Both the position numbers and the translations under genes were made by a program. From Treponema sp. (lineage in GTDB: Bacteria > Spirochaetota > Spirochaetia > Treponematales > Breznakiellaceae): a stretch of DNA of 40,916 nucleotides. The notes below the pieces were generated by a model. It saw only the letters and a list, made by a program, of their open reading frames with translations. It was not told the DNA's origin and ran no database searches. Of this stretch, positions 21,693-26,147 are shown in pieces (position 1 is the stretch's first letter; each line of letters starts with the position of its first letter). The stretch covers positions 1 through 40,916 of the forward strand of contig JAISOX010000137.1 of assembly GCA_031275325.1 (NCBI GenBank). The letters run 5' to 3'.

Positions 21693-22445
21693 TTATATCT
21701 TATAAATCCAGTCATCGGTAACGGTCTTTAGAAAATGGATAGTCCGTTCTTTCCGGGGATGCACAAAAATATCCTCCGGGGAACCTTCCTCCACCACCAC
21801 GCCTTCATCTATAAAAACCACATGGCCGGCAATCTTCCGCACAAAATTCATCTCATGGGAAACAATCAGCATGGTCTGCCCCTGGTCGGCAAGCTGTTTG
21901 ATAACCCCCAGTACTTCTCCTACCCATTCCGGGTCCAGGGCGCTGGTGGGTTCATCAAAAAGCATAACCCGCGGATTCAGCGCCATTGCCCGGGCGATAC
22001 CGACCCGCTGCTGCTGTCCTCCAGAGAGTTCCGAAGGGTACCGTTCAAAATATGCTTCCAGCCCTACCCGTATAAGGGCCGACTTTGCCTCCTGCTCTGC
22101 CTGGCTTTGTTTTTTCTTCTGCCCAACCCTGAGTCCCAGTTCCACATTTCTCAGCGCGGTCATATTCCTGAATAGGTTGTACTGCTGAAAAACCATGGCT
22201 GTTTTCCGCCGCACCGTCAGGGTATCCCTGCCGGAATGTTTTTTCAGGGAAACGCGGAAGTCGTCAATGGCCAGTTCCCCCTCGTCCGCATGTTCAAGGC
22301 AGTTAAGGCATCGCAGCAGGGTTGTTTTTCCCGATCCAGAAGGACCGATTACCGCAACGGTTTCCCCGTCTTGTACGGACAGGTCAATGCCCCGGAGCAC
22401 TTCCTTGGTTCCAAAGGTCTTATGCAGATTGGTAATATGTATCAA
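21693..22445 (-). CDS. Polar amino-acid ABC transporter ATP-binding protein (GlnQ/TcyN type)
   Basis: [61 protein letters not shown]. Confidence 0.93.
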
Positions 22446-23140
22446 CTGACCCCTCCTTTCATGTGAAGCCGTACATTCTTTTCTGCCACTCCGGTCAGTT
22501 GTTCTATCAGGATGGTTATTGCCCAGTACATAAGGGCTACCGCGCAGTAGGCTTCCAGATACCGGTAATTTCCCGCGGTTTTCATGGCGGTTCCCTGGAT
22601 CATCTCGATAATGCCCAGGAGATAGGCTGCGGAAGAACCCTTAACAATGGCGATAAAGGAAGAACCCACGATGGGAACCGCCACGGGCAGGCTTTGGGGA
22701 AGCACGATATGGCGGATTACCTGAAGCCCGGTCAGTCCCACAGAATACCCCGCTTCGTATTGGCCTTTCTCCACCGACAGCAGGGCGGATCTGATCCCTT
22801 CGGATAAAAAACCCGCGGCATCCAGGGTCAACATGACCACCACAACCCCCAGCTTATTCAGGGTGAGCTGATCAAATCCAAAAACCGCGTATATCGCCTT
22901 GGTAATGAAATACGCGAGGAACATTTGCAGCAGCAGCGGAATGGATCGCAGCGCCGTTACATAGGCCTGGGCGAAACGCCGCCATCCGGGAATATGGTAA
23001 ATCCTGCACAGGGCAAGGACCGTTCCTAAAGCCACTCCTCCTATCAGGGGGACCGCACTGAGCAGGGTAACCATGGGAATATACGACAAGGCAACGGTAA
23101 TCTCGTAAAAGAAAAAGGAAGGATCAAAAGAAAGCCCCAT
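22442..23140 (-). CDS. Amino-acid ABC transporter permease (HisM/TcyM type)
   Basis: [20 protein letters not shown]...[50 protein letters not shown]; 4-bp overlap with the ATPase gene. Confidence 0.9.
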
Positions 23141-23143
23141 GAT

Positions 23144-23950
23144 TCAACCTCCTTTTCCCCTGTTGAGGTATACCTCCCCCTGGTCGAGGCGCTTTGACAG
23201 GAGGTTCATTCCTCGTTCCAAAAGTATACAGAGCACAAAAAAGACACAGGCCGCCCCGATATAACCTTCCATCTCCCGGAATGTAGCGGACAAGACAGAC
23301 CCCTGCTGCCCCCGGAAGGATGCAGTCGCGTTGGTAGCGGCCATGCCCATAATATCCAGAATACCCGCGGCGCTGTACGCCAGGGATGTGTCCTTGAGCA
23401 GGCTGGAAAGGCTGTTTGCCATACCCGGAATGCTGATCCTGATTGCCTGGGGCAGGATGACGTAAACCAGGGATTGGAATTTGGTTAACCCCACGGAATA
23501 CGCCGCTTCCTGCTGCCCTGCGCCCACGCCGGATACAGAGGCCCGCAAGGTTTCCGACAAAAAAGCGGCGCTGTTCAGCCCATAGGCCATGATAACAAAC
23601 ATGATAGGCGGCCAATAACGGCCCACGTTATAACCGGTAATCCGCCAGATCAGGCTGGGGAGGAAGATGTTACAGATAAGCAGTTGTATGAGGATGGGGG
23701 TTCCCCGGATGAAAGATATATAAAACCGGGCGGCCTGCCACGCCACAGGAACCTTATATACCTGAACCGCGGCAAGGATAAACGCCAGCGCCATTCCCGT
23801 AGAGAAAGCCCCCGCAGTAATACCCAGGGTTACAGGAACACGGCCCACAATGCGGAACAGGGTGGTAACGAAAAATGACCAACTGAAAAAATGCATGCCC
23901 TCTATCCTTTTCGGAACAGGAGAACCCGGGGCTTTCCATGGTTTAAGCAT
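23144..23950 (-). CDS. Amino-acid ABC transporter permease (HisQ/TcyL type); start uncertain
   Basis: FYISFIRGTPILIQLLICN...GLNSAAFLSETLRASVSGVGAGQQEAAYSVGLTKFQSLVYVILPQAIRISIPGMAN. ATG at about 23896 (MHFFSW) is an alternative start. Confidence 0.88.
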   Translation of the reverse strand: MLKPWKAPGSPVPKRIEGMHFFSWSFFVTTLFRIVGRVPVTLGITAGAFSTGMALAFILAAVQVYKVPVAWQAARFYISFIRGTPILIQLLICNIFLPSLIWRITGYNVGRYWPPIMFVIMAYGLNSAAFLSETLRASVSGVGAGQQEAAYSVGLTKFQSLVYVILPQAIRISIPGMANSLSSLLKDTSLAYSAAGILDIMGMAATNATASFRGQQGSVLSATFREMEGYIGAACVFFVLCILLERGMNLLSKRLDQGEVYLNRGKGG

Positions 23951-23972: not shown

Positions 23973-24785
23973 CTAATCCTTAACGATGAAATCCCCTCCC
24001 AGCCATTGGTGGGAAAGTTTTACCAGGGTTCCGTCCTGTTTCAGTTCCTGGAGGGCCGCGTCAAAAATACGCCGCAGTTCCTCGCCGGTTTGCTTGTTAA
24101 AAAGGTAATAGGTATTGGAATTGTCTACCGGATTACCGACCGCCTTGATTTTGGCTTGATATTCCTTTTTATAGCTCTCGATGTTTCGGATCATGCTCAC
24201 CATCGCGTCCGCTCTACCAGTAGCAATATCCTCCAATGCCAGCGCAGTGGTTGCCTCGAAGATGATCGTAAAGGGCCTCCCATGATCCTCGTTCCATTTG
24301 TTGGTTATATAATAACTGTTGTTGGTAGTGCTGGTTGAGACTACGGTCTTCCCCTTCAAGTCCTCAAAACTTGTAATGCTGTTATCCTCTTCCCGGACCG
24401 CGAGGTATTGGGGAAACGTGGTATACCCCACTTTGCCGTAGAGGTACTTCTGATCCCGCTCAATGTTGTACTCGTACTGATGAACCGCCACATCAATTTT
24501 CCCTGATTCCAAAGACAAAAGAATGTTCGCGAAATCGTAAATCTGATAGGTCAGGGTGAACTCCGGGTGCCGGGCGTCGATTTCGTCCAGCACTGCCTTT
24601 TCAAACCCGGTAAGCTGGTTGTTTTCGTCCAGAAACCAGTAAGGATTGTACGCGGAACCCGCGCCGATGATGATCTCCCGGGGTTTCCCGCCGGAAGATC
24701 CCTTATTATCGGATGAACCGGCAGCGCCGGCGATCACGATAACCGTTGTAAGCAACAGGACAGATAAAACTCCTGTCTTTTTCAT
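23973..24785 (-). CDS. Amino-acid ABC transporter substrate-binding protein (probably cystine)
   Basis: SBP family 3: GSAYNPYWFLDENNQLTGFEKAVLDEI, YDFANILLSLESGKIDVAVHQYEYN, FEDLKGKTVVSTSTTNNSYY. RBS aggag; adjacent C-S lyase suggests cystine. Confidence 0.88.
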   Translation of the reverse strand: MKKTGVLSVLLLTTVIVIAGAAGSSDNKGSSGGKPREIIIGAGSAYNPYWFLDENNQLTGFEKAVLDEIDARHPEFTLTYQIYDFANILLSLESGKIDVAVHQYEYNIERDQKYLYGKVGYTTFPQYLAVREEDNSITSFEDLKGKTVVSTSTTNNSYYITNKWNEDHGRPFTIIFEATTALALEDIATGRADAMVSMIRNIESYKKEYQAKIKAVGNPVDNSNTYYLFNKQTGEELRRIFDAALQELKQDGTLVKLSHQWLGGDFIVKD

Positions 24786-24796
24786 AATAAACTCCT

Positions 24797-24823
24797 GTAA
24801 CAGCGGCGGTATCGCCGCTTACG
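24797..24823 (-). promoter_or_regulatory. Stem-loop GUAAGCGGCG-AUAC-CGCCGCU(G)UUAC abutting the SBP Shine-Dalgarno
   Basis: Perfect AGCGGCG/CGCCGCT arms (24802-24819) extended by GTAA/TTAC with one bulge, next to AGGAG at 24792-24796. Confidence 0.65.
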
Positions 24824-24879
24824 TCCAATCGAACATTAACGCCTCGTAGTAATGACAGCCCCGTAATGTGCAAGTGTTT

Positions 24880-24906
24880 TTATCGGTACCTGAATGTACA
24901 ACACAT
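24880..24906 (-). CDS. Candidate cysteine leader peptide MCCTFRYR
   Basis: ATG TGT TGT ACA TTC AGG TAC CGA TAA, with AGGAGG (24915-24920) 8 nt upstream; lies between the putative promoter and the SBP gene. Confidence 0.55.
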   Translation of the reverse strand: MCCTFRYR

Positions 24907-24938
24907 CGGATGCGCCTCCTCATTTTTCTGTTATGCAT

Positions 24939-24964
24939 ATCGTTTTAACATATATTAAAACGAT
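24939..24964. promoter_or_regulatory. Perfect inverted repeat ATCGTTTTAA-catata-TTAAAACGAT (candidate operator)
   Basis: 10-bp arms, 6-bp spacer, immediately downstream of the putative -10. Confidence 0.7.
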
Positions 24965-24976
24965 AATTTTACTAGG

Positions 24977-25005
24977 AATATATACAAAAAAATGTACTTG
25001 GTCAA
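24977..25005 (-). promoter_or_regulatory. Putative promoter TTGACC-N17-TATATT for the amino-acid ABC operon
   Basis: Minus-strand TTGACC (25000-25005), 17-nt spacer, TATATT (24977-24982). Confidence 0.6.
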
Positions 25006-26147
25006 GGAGACACCTCAATTTTTTTTATTTTCCTCAAATTTTCTTCAATTCTATCCAGGGCTTCCGCAAGCCGCGCCCGGGTGGTCCCGAAGTTTATCCG
25101 TACATATCCTTCAGCGCCAAAAGGCTTGCCGTCGTTGGGAAGAATCTTGGGATATTCCTGGAGCCACCGGTAGGGGTCGCTGATGCCCAGAGGACGGAAA
25201 TCGATCCATTGGAGGTACGTCCCTTCCACATGGGTATATTTCGCGGCAGGAACGATTTCTCCAAGCCGTTTTTCAAGATAATCCCGGTTGCCCCGCAGAT
25301 ACTCCACCAACTGGAGCCGCCATTCCCGGGATTGGCCGTAGGCGGCCTTTGCCGCGGCAACATTGAGAATTCCCGGATTCGGCAGGGCATAGCAGGTTTT
25401 GACGAATTCCTCCCGCAGCGTTTCATTGGGGATGACCGCGAACCCAAAAGGAAGCCCGGCGATGTTATAGGTTTTTCCAGGCCCCATAATGGTGATGCTG
25501 TGTTCCGCAGCCCATTCATCCACGGTAAACCAGGGAATATGAGGCCGGTCGTAAACCAGGCCGCAGTGGGCCTCGTCAGAGATGACGATGAGGTTCTTTG
25601 CTCTGGCAAAGGCGTTTAATTCCGCCAGTTCTTCACGTTTGTATACCCGCCCTACCGGGTTATGGGGGTTGCAGAGGTAAAAAAGCCGGACATCTTCCCT
25701 GGCGCGTGATTTGAGATCCTCAAAATCAAACTCATAATACTCGCCGGTATTTTTGAGAGGAGAAAGGATCGTCTCTTTACCCGCTTTAAGGGGGGCTGCC
25801 AGCAATACATGGTAGTTGGGAGTATTGATCAGTACCGGCCCTTCCCGTAAATGGCTTACCGCGGCGAGAACCGGTACGATGGCGGGGAGCACTACAACCC
25901 AGTTCTCCTGAATTGCCGCGTTGTATTCATCTTGAAACCATTTTTTTATCACTCCGGGAAATTCCGGGTCCAGGCCATAACCGAAAACGCCGTGGTCTAT
26001 TTTTTTCTGGATCGCCTCGATAATCGCCGGCGCTGACCTGAAATCCATATCCGCCACAAACATGGGCAGTACCCCCGCGGCAGGGGCGTCCCACTTAACG
26101 CTGCCGAAACCCCGCCGGTCTAGGGGTTCATCAAAATTGTAGATCAT
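25002..26147 (-). CDS. MalY/PatB-family PLP-dependent C-S lyase/aminotransferase
   Basis: FDEPLDRRGFGSVKWD, FVADMDFRSAPAI, LCNPHNPVGRVYKREEL, VISDEAHCGLVY, MGPGKTYNIAGLPFGFAVIPN. Confidence 0.92.
   Translation of the reverse strand: MIYNFDEPLDRRGFGSVKWDAPAAGVLPMFVADMDFRSAPAIIEAIQKKIDHGVFGYGLDPEFPGVIKKWFQDEYNAAIQENWVVVLPAIVPVLAAVSHLREGPVLINTPNYHVLLAAPLKAGKETILSPLKNTGEYYEFDFEDLKSRAREDVRLFYLCNPHNPVGRVYKREELAELNAFARAKNLIVISDEAHCGLVYDRPHIPWFTVDEWAAEHSITIMGPGKTYNIAGLPFGFAVIPNETLREEFVKTCYALPNPGILNVAAAKAAYGQSREWRLQLVEYLRGNRDYLEKRLGEIVPAAKYTHVEGTYLQWIDFRPLGISDPYRWLQEYPKILPNDGKPFGAEGYVRINFGTTRARLAEALDRIEENLRKIKKIEVSP

Follow-up and report, generated by a model that had tools for sequence, protein, structure and literature searches.

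Attenuators of the trp, his and leu type have a short leader ORF that contains codons for the amino acid in question, and in a classical transcription attenuator an intrinsic terminator lies between the leader ORF and the first gene. In mycobacteria, a ribosome stall on Cys codons under cysteine shortage is said to raise downstream expression, and leaderless ORFs reportedly control several operons together. As cited in PMC9094748, polycysteine leaderless short ORFs of M. smegmatis have been reported as cysteine-responsive attenuators (Canestrari et al. 2020). Leader peptides with Cys codons were also predicted in Actinobacteria in 2005, before cys operons and with no recognisable terminator (PMC1262725); there the Cys codons cluster in runs close to the stop, and the genes that follow are biosynthetic. 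As to the spirochaetes, no account of cysteine leader peptides was found in the literature searched.

In this paper, we have analysed a 40,916-nt stretch of Treponema DNA (the window, contig C77 of a 2.15 Mb genome that is 66% complete), in which a putative cystine ABC transporter operon is preceded by a leader containing a very short upstream ORF (uORF) that opens with two Cys codons. We regard it as probable that this is a minimal, start-proximal cysteine-sensing uORF, which would raise the expression of the cystine transporter when Cys-tRNA is short. The uORF resembles those of trp, his and leu in that a short leader ORF contains codons for the amino acid concerned, those of Actinobacteria (PMC1262725) in that a short Cys-codon ORF precedes a sulfur-amino-acid operon without a recognisable intrinsic terminator, and those of M. 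smegmatis in the proposed logic, i.e. a Cys-codon stall under shortage leading to more downstream expression. Unlike the trp, his and leu leaders, however, its regulatory codons are start-proximal and no terminator/antiterminator pair was found; unlike the actinobacterial ORFs, it has two Cys codons right after the AUG, is reduced in one ortholog to MCC-stop, and stands before a cystine importer in a spirochaete; and unlike the M. smegmatis ORFs, it has a strong Shine-Dalgarno (SD) sequence, only two conserved Cys codons and no known sequestering structure. If the proposed reading is correct, cysteine-sensing leader ORFs, described in Actinobacteria, would gain spirochaetes as hosts and a cystine importer as a target, the extreme minimal form (Met-Cys-Cys-stop) would isolate what a regulatory uORF needs, and the series of orthologous uORFs would amount to a natural mutagenesis experiment. 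The features of the locus are as follows.

25002..26147, minus strand: PatB/MalY/cystalysin-type C-S lyase gene, upstream of the leader and not downstream of the uORF (context)
24977..25005, minus strand: sigma-70-like promoter TTGACC-N17-TATATT (-35 at 25005-25000, 17-nt spacer, -10 at 24982-24977); 10/12 consensus matches; chance alone would give one such site in the region
24938..24978, minus strand: candidate operator just 3' of the -10, consisting of the conserved TTCCTAGTAA and then the dyad ATCGTTTTAA-N6-TTAAAACGAT (24964-24939)
24915..24920, minus strand: uORF SD AGGAGG; all six uORF loci have this sequence or a near variant of it
24880..24906, minus strand: uORF ATG TGT TGT ACA TTC AGG TAC CGA TAA (MCCTFRYR), with conserved tandem Cys codons
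24786..24864, minus strand: diverged copy of a family-wide repeat that supplies the ribosome-binding site of the substrate-binding protein (SBP) gene (covariance model and exact patterns)
24854-24834, minus strand: hairpin CATTA/TAATG within the repeat copy
24820-24802, minus strand: hairpin AAGCGGC/GCCGCT within the repeat copy
24796-24792, minus strand: SBP SD AGGAG (SBP ATG at 24785)
23973..24785, minus strand: gene of the TcyK (YtmK)-like SBP of a cystine-type ABC transporter (PDB comparison)
21693..23950, minus strand: remaining genes of the transporter operon, for two permeases and an ATPase

When the sequence was re-read, the promoter, the uORF SD, the uORF and the SBP gene were found at the minus-strand positions that a preliminary description of this DNA had assigned to them, in the order promoter, TTCCTAGTAA, dyad, uORF SD, uORF and SBP start. 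The stop of the PatB-type gene upstream (25002) shares bases with the -35, the predicted 5' end lies about 65 nt upstream of the uORF, and the strong SD would be reached 50-60 nt into the predicted transcript, so that initiation would not be leaderless in the mycobacterial sense. The uORF (AGGAGG-N8-ATG, 8 codons) has its own ribosome-binding site within the mRNA leader, which is 185 nt long as used for the shuffles below, and its stop is 94 nt upstream of the SBP start. The assignment of the transporter to the cystine type, also proposed in the preliminary description, is borne out by comparison with solved structures, among which the SBP is closest to B. subtilis YtmK (TcyK; PDB 2o1m, E 3e-53), followed by Lmo2349 (PDB 4gvo, E 2e-48). 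TcyK belongs to the TcyJKLMN cystine system. The permeases scored best against a cystine permease model, below the cutoff of that model. Cystine uptake is the best assignment, because the SBP is TcyK-like, the permeases are nearest to the cystine model and a C-S lyase gene adjoins; as judged from sequence, therefore, the downstream genes have a role in cysteine supply, as would be expected of a cysteine-responsive uORF attenuator. Several copies of CysK-family genes are present in the window's genome, which makes it improbable that the organism is simply auxotrophic for cysteine.

The preliminary description had made its reading depend on conservation of the tandem Cys codons, and these are indeed kept: ATG TGT TGT with an SD occurs in all six uORF-bearing orthologous leaders, found in Treponema metagenome-assembled genomes that we take, from their context, to be those of termite-gut treponemes. 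The encoded peptides are MCCTFRYR in the window, MCCYSASR in G043, MCCKYLYR in G036, MCCQSACPAKKLLC in G053 (with two extra Cys codons), MCCQ in G044 and MCC-stop in G050, so that Cys codons are both over-represented and conserved (TGT TGT in 6/6), while after the tandem Cys the sequence, the length (3 to 14 residues) and the stop positions all diverge. In an alignment of five leaders the longest invariant run is the 9-nt ATGTGTTGT (24906-24898), the next being AAGCGG (6 nt), and only 8 of the 40 columns 3' of ATGTGTTGT are invariant, with pairwise identities mostly between 39 and 68%. By our arithmetic, the chance that the six bases of the Cys codons stay invariant by drift is about 0.2^6, a figure that ignores shared ancestry, and the six leaders are related by descent rather than six independent events. 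The invariance of the start and Cys codons amid diverging flanks is in favour of selection having acted on the tandem Cys at the codon level in one lineage, and the different lengths and stops argue that the peptide is not itself the product.

Such an arrangement is rarely expected by chance. Dinucleotide shuffles of the window leader produced a Cys-Cys uORF that follows an SD and does not exceed 40 codons in 0.14% of cases, and one with a strong SD and ATG in none of 20,000. Cys is rare in the seven neighbouring genes (19 of 1864 codons, 1%), and the uORF is one of two such ORFs across the 41-kb window, the other lying in no leader examined. Across 200 genomes of the family the SD-ATG-TGT-TGT pattern occurs elsewhere at the background rate, with 11 matches against 9 in the reversed control; six of the 11, at five loci, are the same leader in related genomes, and the remaining strict-pattern MCC uORF matches at other genes are chance ORFs or ordinary small genes. 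The exact coding pattern for MCCTFRYR was found in the window alone among these 200 genomes, since the C-terminal part of the peptide varies.

The uORF is confined to part of the orthologs. The G105, G126 and G137 orthologs have short leaders without any Cys-Cys uORF, and the orthologs in another family (f3) have neither type of uORF. In G188, whose SBP is 54% identical, there is an unrelated uORF, MNNKIKREIKYSEHCCK, which ends in HCCK-stop and has the SD AGAGGAAGG; an SD-preceded Cys-Cys uORF appeared in 0.045% of shuffles of this leader, and judging from these sequences the G188 uORF probably represents a second, independent origin. The G188 leader may be closer to a classical attenuator than that of the window. 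Hairpin candidates AAAAACAGGCUGUUUUU and UCCUAAAAAACUGAUGUUUUAAGAGGA are seen 3' of the HCCK-stop uORF at this locus (L060, contig C9). None of the 20 upstream regions of cysK examined has a Cys-Cys uORF, and the locus hence lacks the sister uORFs that would parallel multi-operon control in M. smegmatis; together with the four orthologs that have no uORF or a different one, this indicates that the uORF does not define a regulon.

The 3' end of the leader proved to be of a different nature. The preliminary description had noted a strong stem-loop touching the SBP SD and followed by no U-tract. A terminal hairpin without a U-tract is indeed present next to the SD, namely AAGCGGC/GCCGCT, yet it ends 5 nt before the SD, which it neither includes nor pairs with, so that the adjacency stands and the contact does not. 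A covariance model of the leader gave matches in 129 of the 200 family genomes, mostly via the 3' half, of which the weakest may be chance, and we therefore relied on exact patterns instead. The stronger matches proved to represent an element of some 67 nt, whose copies follow a consensus of roughly TAGGAGTTATCATTAACACTTCGTGTTAATGTTCGATTTAACATAAGCGGCGATACCGCCGCTTTTTATAGGAGTTA-N-ATG. Exact patterns of this repeat were found in 22 of the 200 family genomes, in 14 genera, with no match in the reversed control, and an order-wide scan gave 20 of 388 genomes, all in the window's family and none in families f2-f5. Both hairpins show compensatory changes, with 97.8% of cells paired and covariation above every shuffle and slid control, in an alignment that was fitted to the model and is hence biased towards structure. 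In nearly every copy read, a gene ATG lies at a fixed distance 3' of the repeat, and these genes are of unrelated kinds, with rpoC, adk and fba among them (names recognised by eye from the sequence). Tandem copies are spaced 66-68 nt, and since AGGAGT-like sequences bracket each unit, the last of them supplies the ribosome-binding site. Examples among the repeat loci (L090-L134) are L094, L122, L125 and L130, and the consensus second hairpin followed by TTTTTA resembles a weak terminator. The repeat-bearing loci gave nothing convincing against Rfam at either gathering or relaxed thresholds, and no account of this repeat was found in the literature searched; it is apparently an undescribed element, which in a single bacterial family lies where translation of many genes begins. 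An identity with attC sites of integrons was rejected, the tandem copies standing before rpoC, fba and other core genes and having none of the attC core motifs, as was a short ORF, MFDWT, inside the repeat, which is absent from other copies. As the stem-loop is a generic repeat before unrelated genes, it is unlikely to be a cysteine-specific switch.

The leader was also searched and folded as an RNA. Rfam covariance models gave no match to the leader at the gathering threshold and a single one at a relaxed threshold (E 3.5, on the opposite strand), and by sequence the leader does not appear to belong to a known Rfam cis-regulatory RNA (riboswitch, T-box). The terminator scan found no intrinsic terminator inside the leader, i.e. 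between the uORF and the first gene, the sole terminator-like site being within the SBP gene. Leaders were folded free and with a ribosome mask at codons 1-3, and the accessibility of the SBP SD was compared; G050 was excluded from the masked folding, and in G188 the mask stood at the uORF start, not at the Cys codons. In the window, most of the SBP SD is unpaired even in the free RNA, its mean accessibility being 0.75, against 0.56-0.66 with the modelled stall, and no consistent gain under the stall was seen in the orthologs. RNAalifold on five leaders proposed the two hairpins H1 and H2 and a weak 4-nt pairing between the segment after the uORF and the SBP SD, which was not convincing as an RNA switch, the consensus structure being weak. 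The earlier proposal that a stall refolds the leader and frees the SBP start via the terminal stem-loop thus found no support, as no consistent unmasking occurred on folding, the stem-loop is part of the dispersed repeat and no consistent RNA switch emerged.

These results bear most directly on classical attenuation, in which a stalled ribosome refolds the leader and thereby exposes the SBP SD or prevents a terminator. The weak anti-SD pairing would suit it, and mycobacterial cysteine uORFs are said to free the start site in this way; the fall in modelled SD accessibility, the occurrence of the stem-loop before many unrelated genes and the empty terminator scan nevertheless make it quite unlikely here. 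We rate somewhat higher, while still regarding it as unlikely, the view that the uORF is a relic or a chance ORF and that the operon is controlled only at transcription via the operator-like block, perhaps by a CymR-like Rrf2 repressor. The CCTAGTA-type block beside the -10 is kept in orthologs with and without the uORF, dyads of the type ACCTAsTA-N-TAGGT occur at the corresponding place upstream of the SBP gene in the f3 orthologs, and the window's genome has Rrf2-type regulator genes, including a tandem pair next to a cystathionine gamma-synthase-like gene (L163, G000 contig C92); the block is a plausible candidate site for such a repressor. A similar sequence, TTTAGTAGG, was seen close to cysK promoters. 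However, operator control and a uORF can coexist, and a relic would hardly keep its SD, start and both Cys codons in 6/6 uORFs amid near-random flanks, nor would an independent Cys-Cys uORF be expected in G188.

The conservation itself can be read in other ways. The run ATGTGTTGT might be conserved as RNA or DNA, serving to let ribosomes land on an unstructured stretch, to bind a protein or another RNA, or to form one arm of a pairing, with the Cys codons incidental. A nucleotide-level constraint may act too, since every conserved Cys codon is TGT and none TGC, whereas the seven neighbouring genes use TGC more (12 to 7), and the ATG-TGTTGT block is conserved with its SD as one unit. As the whole explanation this appears rather unlikely, given that the unrelated G188 uORF has TGT TGT at its end in another sequence context, that G053 adds two further Cys codons, and that neither RNAalifold nor masked folding yielded a conserved pairing partner. 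It is highly improbable, on the other hand, that the active agent is the Cys-Cys peptide, which might for instance sense metal or redox state while nascent or once released: a Cys-Cys dipeptide could by general chemistry bind metal or be oxidised, but the peptides are anywhere between 3 and 14 residues long and share nothing beyond the start and the Cys pair, and the Cys pair of MCC-stop would still be within the ribosome.

Under the favoured reading of a Cys-tRNA-sensing uORF, ribosomes would be recruited by the strong SD to AUG-UGU-UGU, close to the mRNA 5' end. As long as Cys-tRNA(Cys) is charged, they would read all three to fourteen codons and be released; if it ran short, they would stall with the initiator or the first Cys in the P site, and the stall would lead to higher expression of the cystine transporter. 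We infer the translation of the uORF, the stalling and the direction of the effect. Since the SBP start is part of a generic repeat and the analysis revealed neither refolding nor a terminator, we tentatively prefer, over unmasking of the SD, that the stalled ribosome shields the transcript from Rho or from 5'-end-dependent decay, a mechanism we hold to be possible rather than likely. In G050 the ribosome cannot pass codon 3, which makes any mechanism based on the distance travelled by the ribosome hard to reconcile; one that depends on its presence, such as shielding from Rho or nucleases, would be compatible with this uORF. It is more doubtful whether the three-codon AUG-UGU-UGU-stop suffices as a Cys-tRNA sensor, with a near-initiation complex near the 5' end as the stall and transcript protection as the output; if it does, starvation would be read at the very first elongation step.

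In G043, two contigs (L038 and L039, on C219 and C214) both end within the leader with an overlap of about 110 nt, which suggests an assembly break or a rearrangement. In G036 (L036/L166, contig C64), the SBP gene and both permease genes are deleted, while the uORF encoding MCCKYLYR and the promoter region survive and run into a remnant of the ATPase gene.
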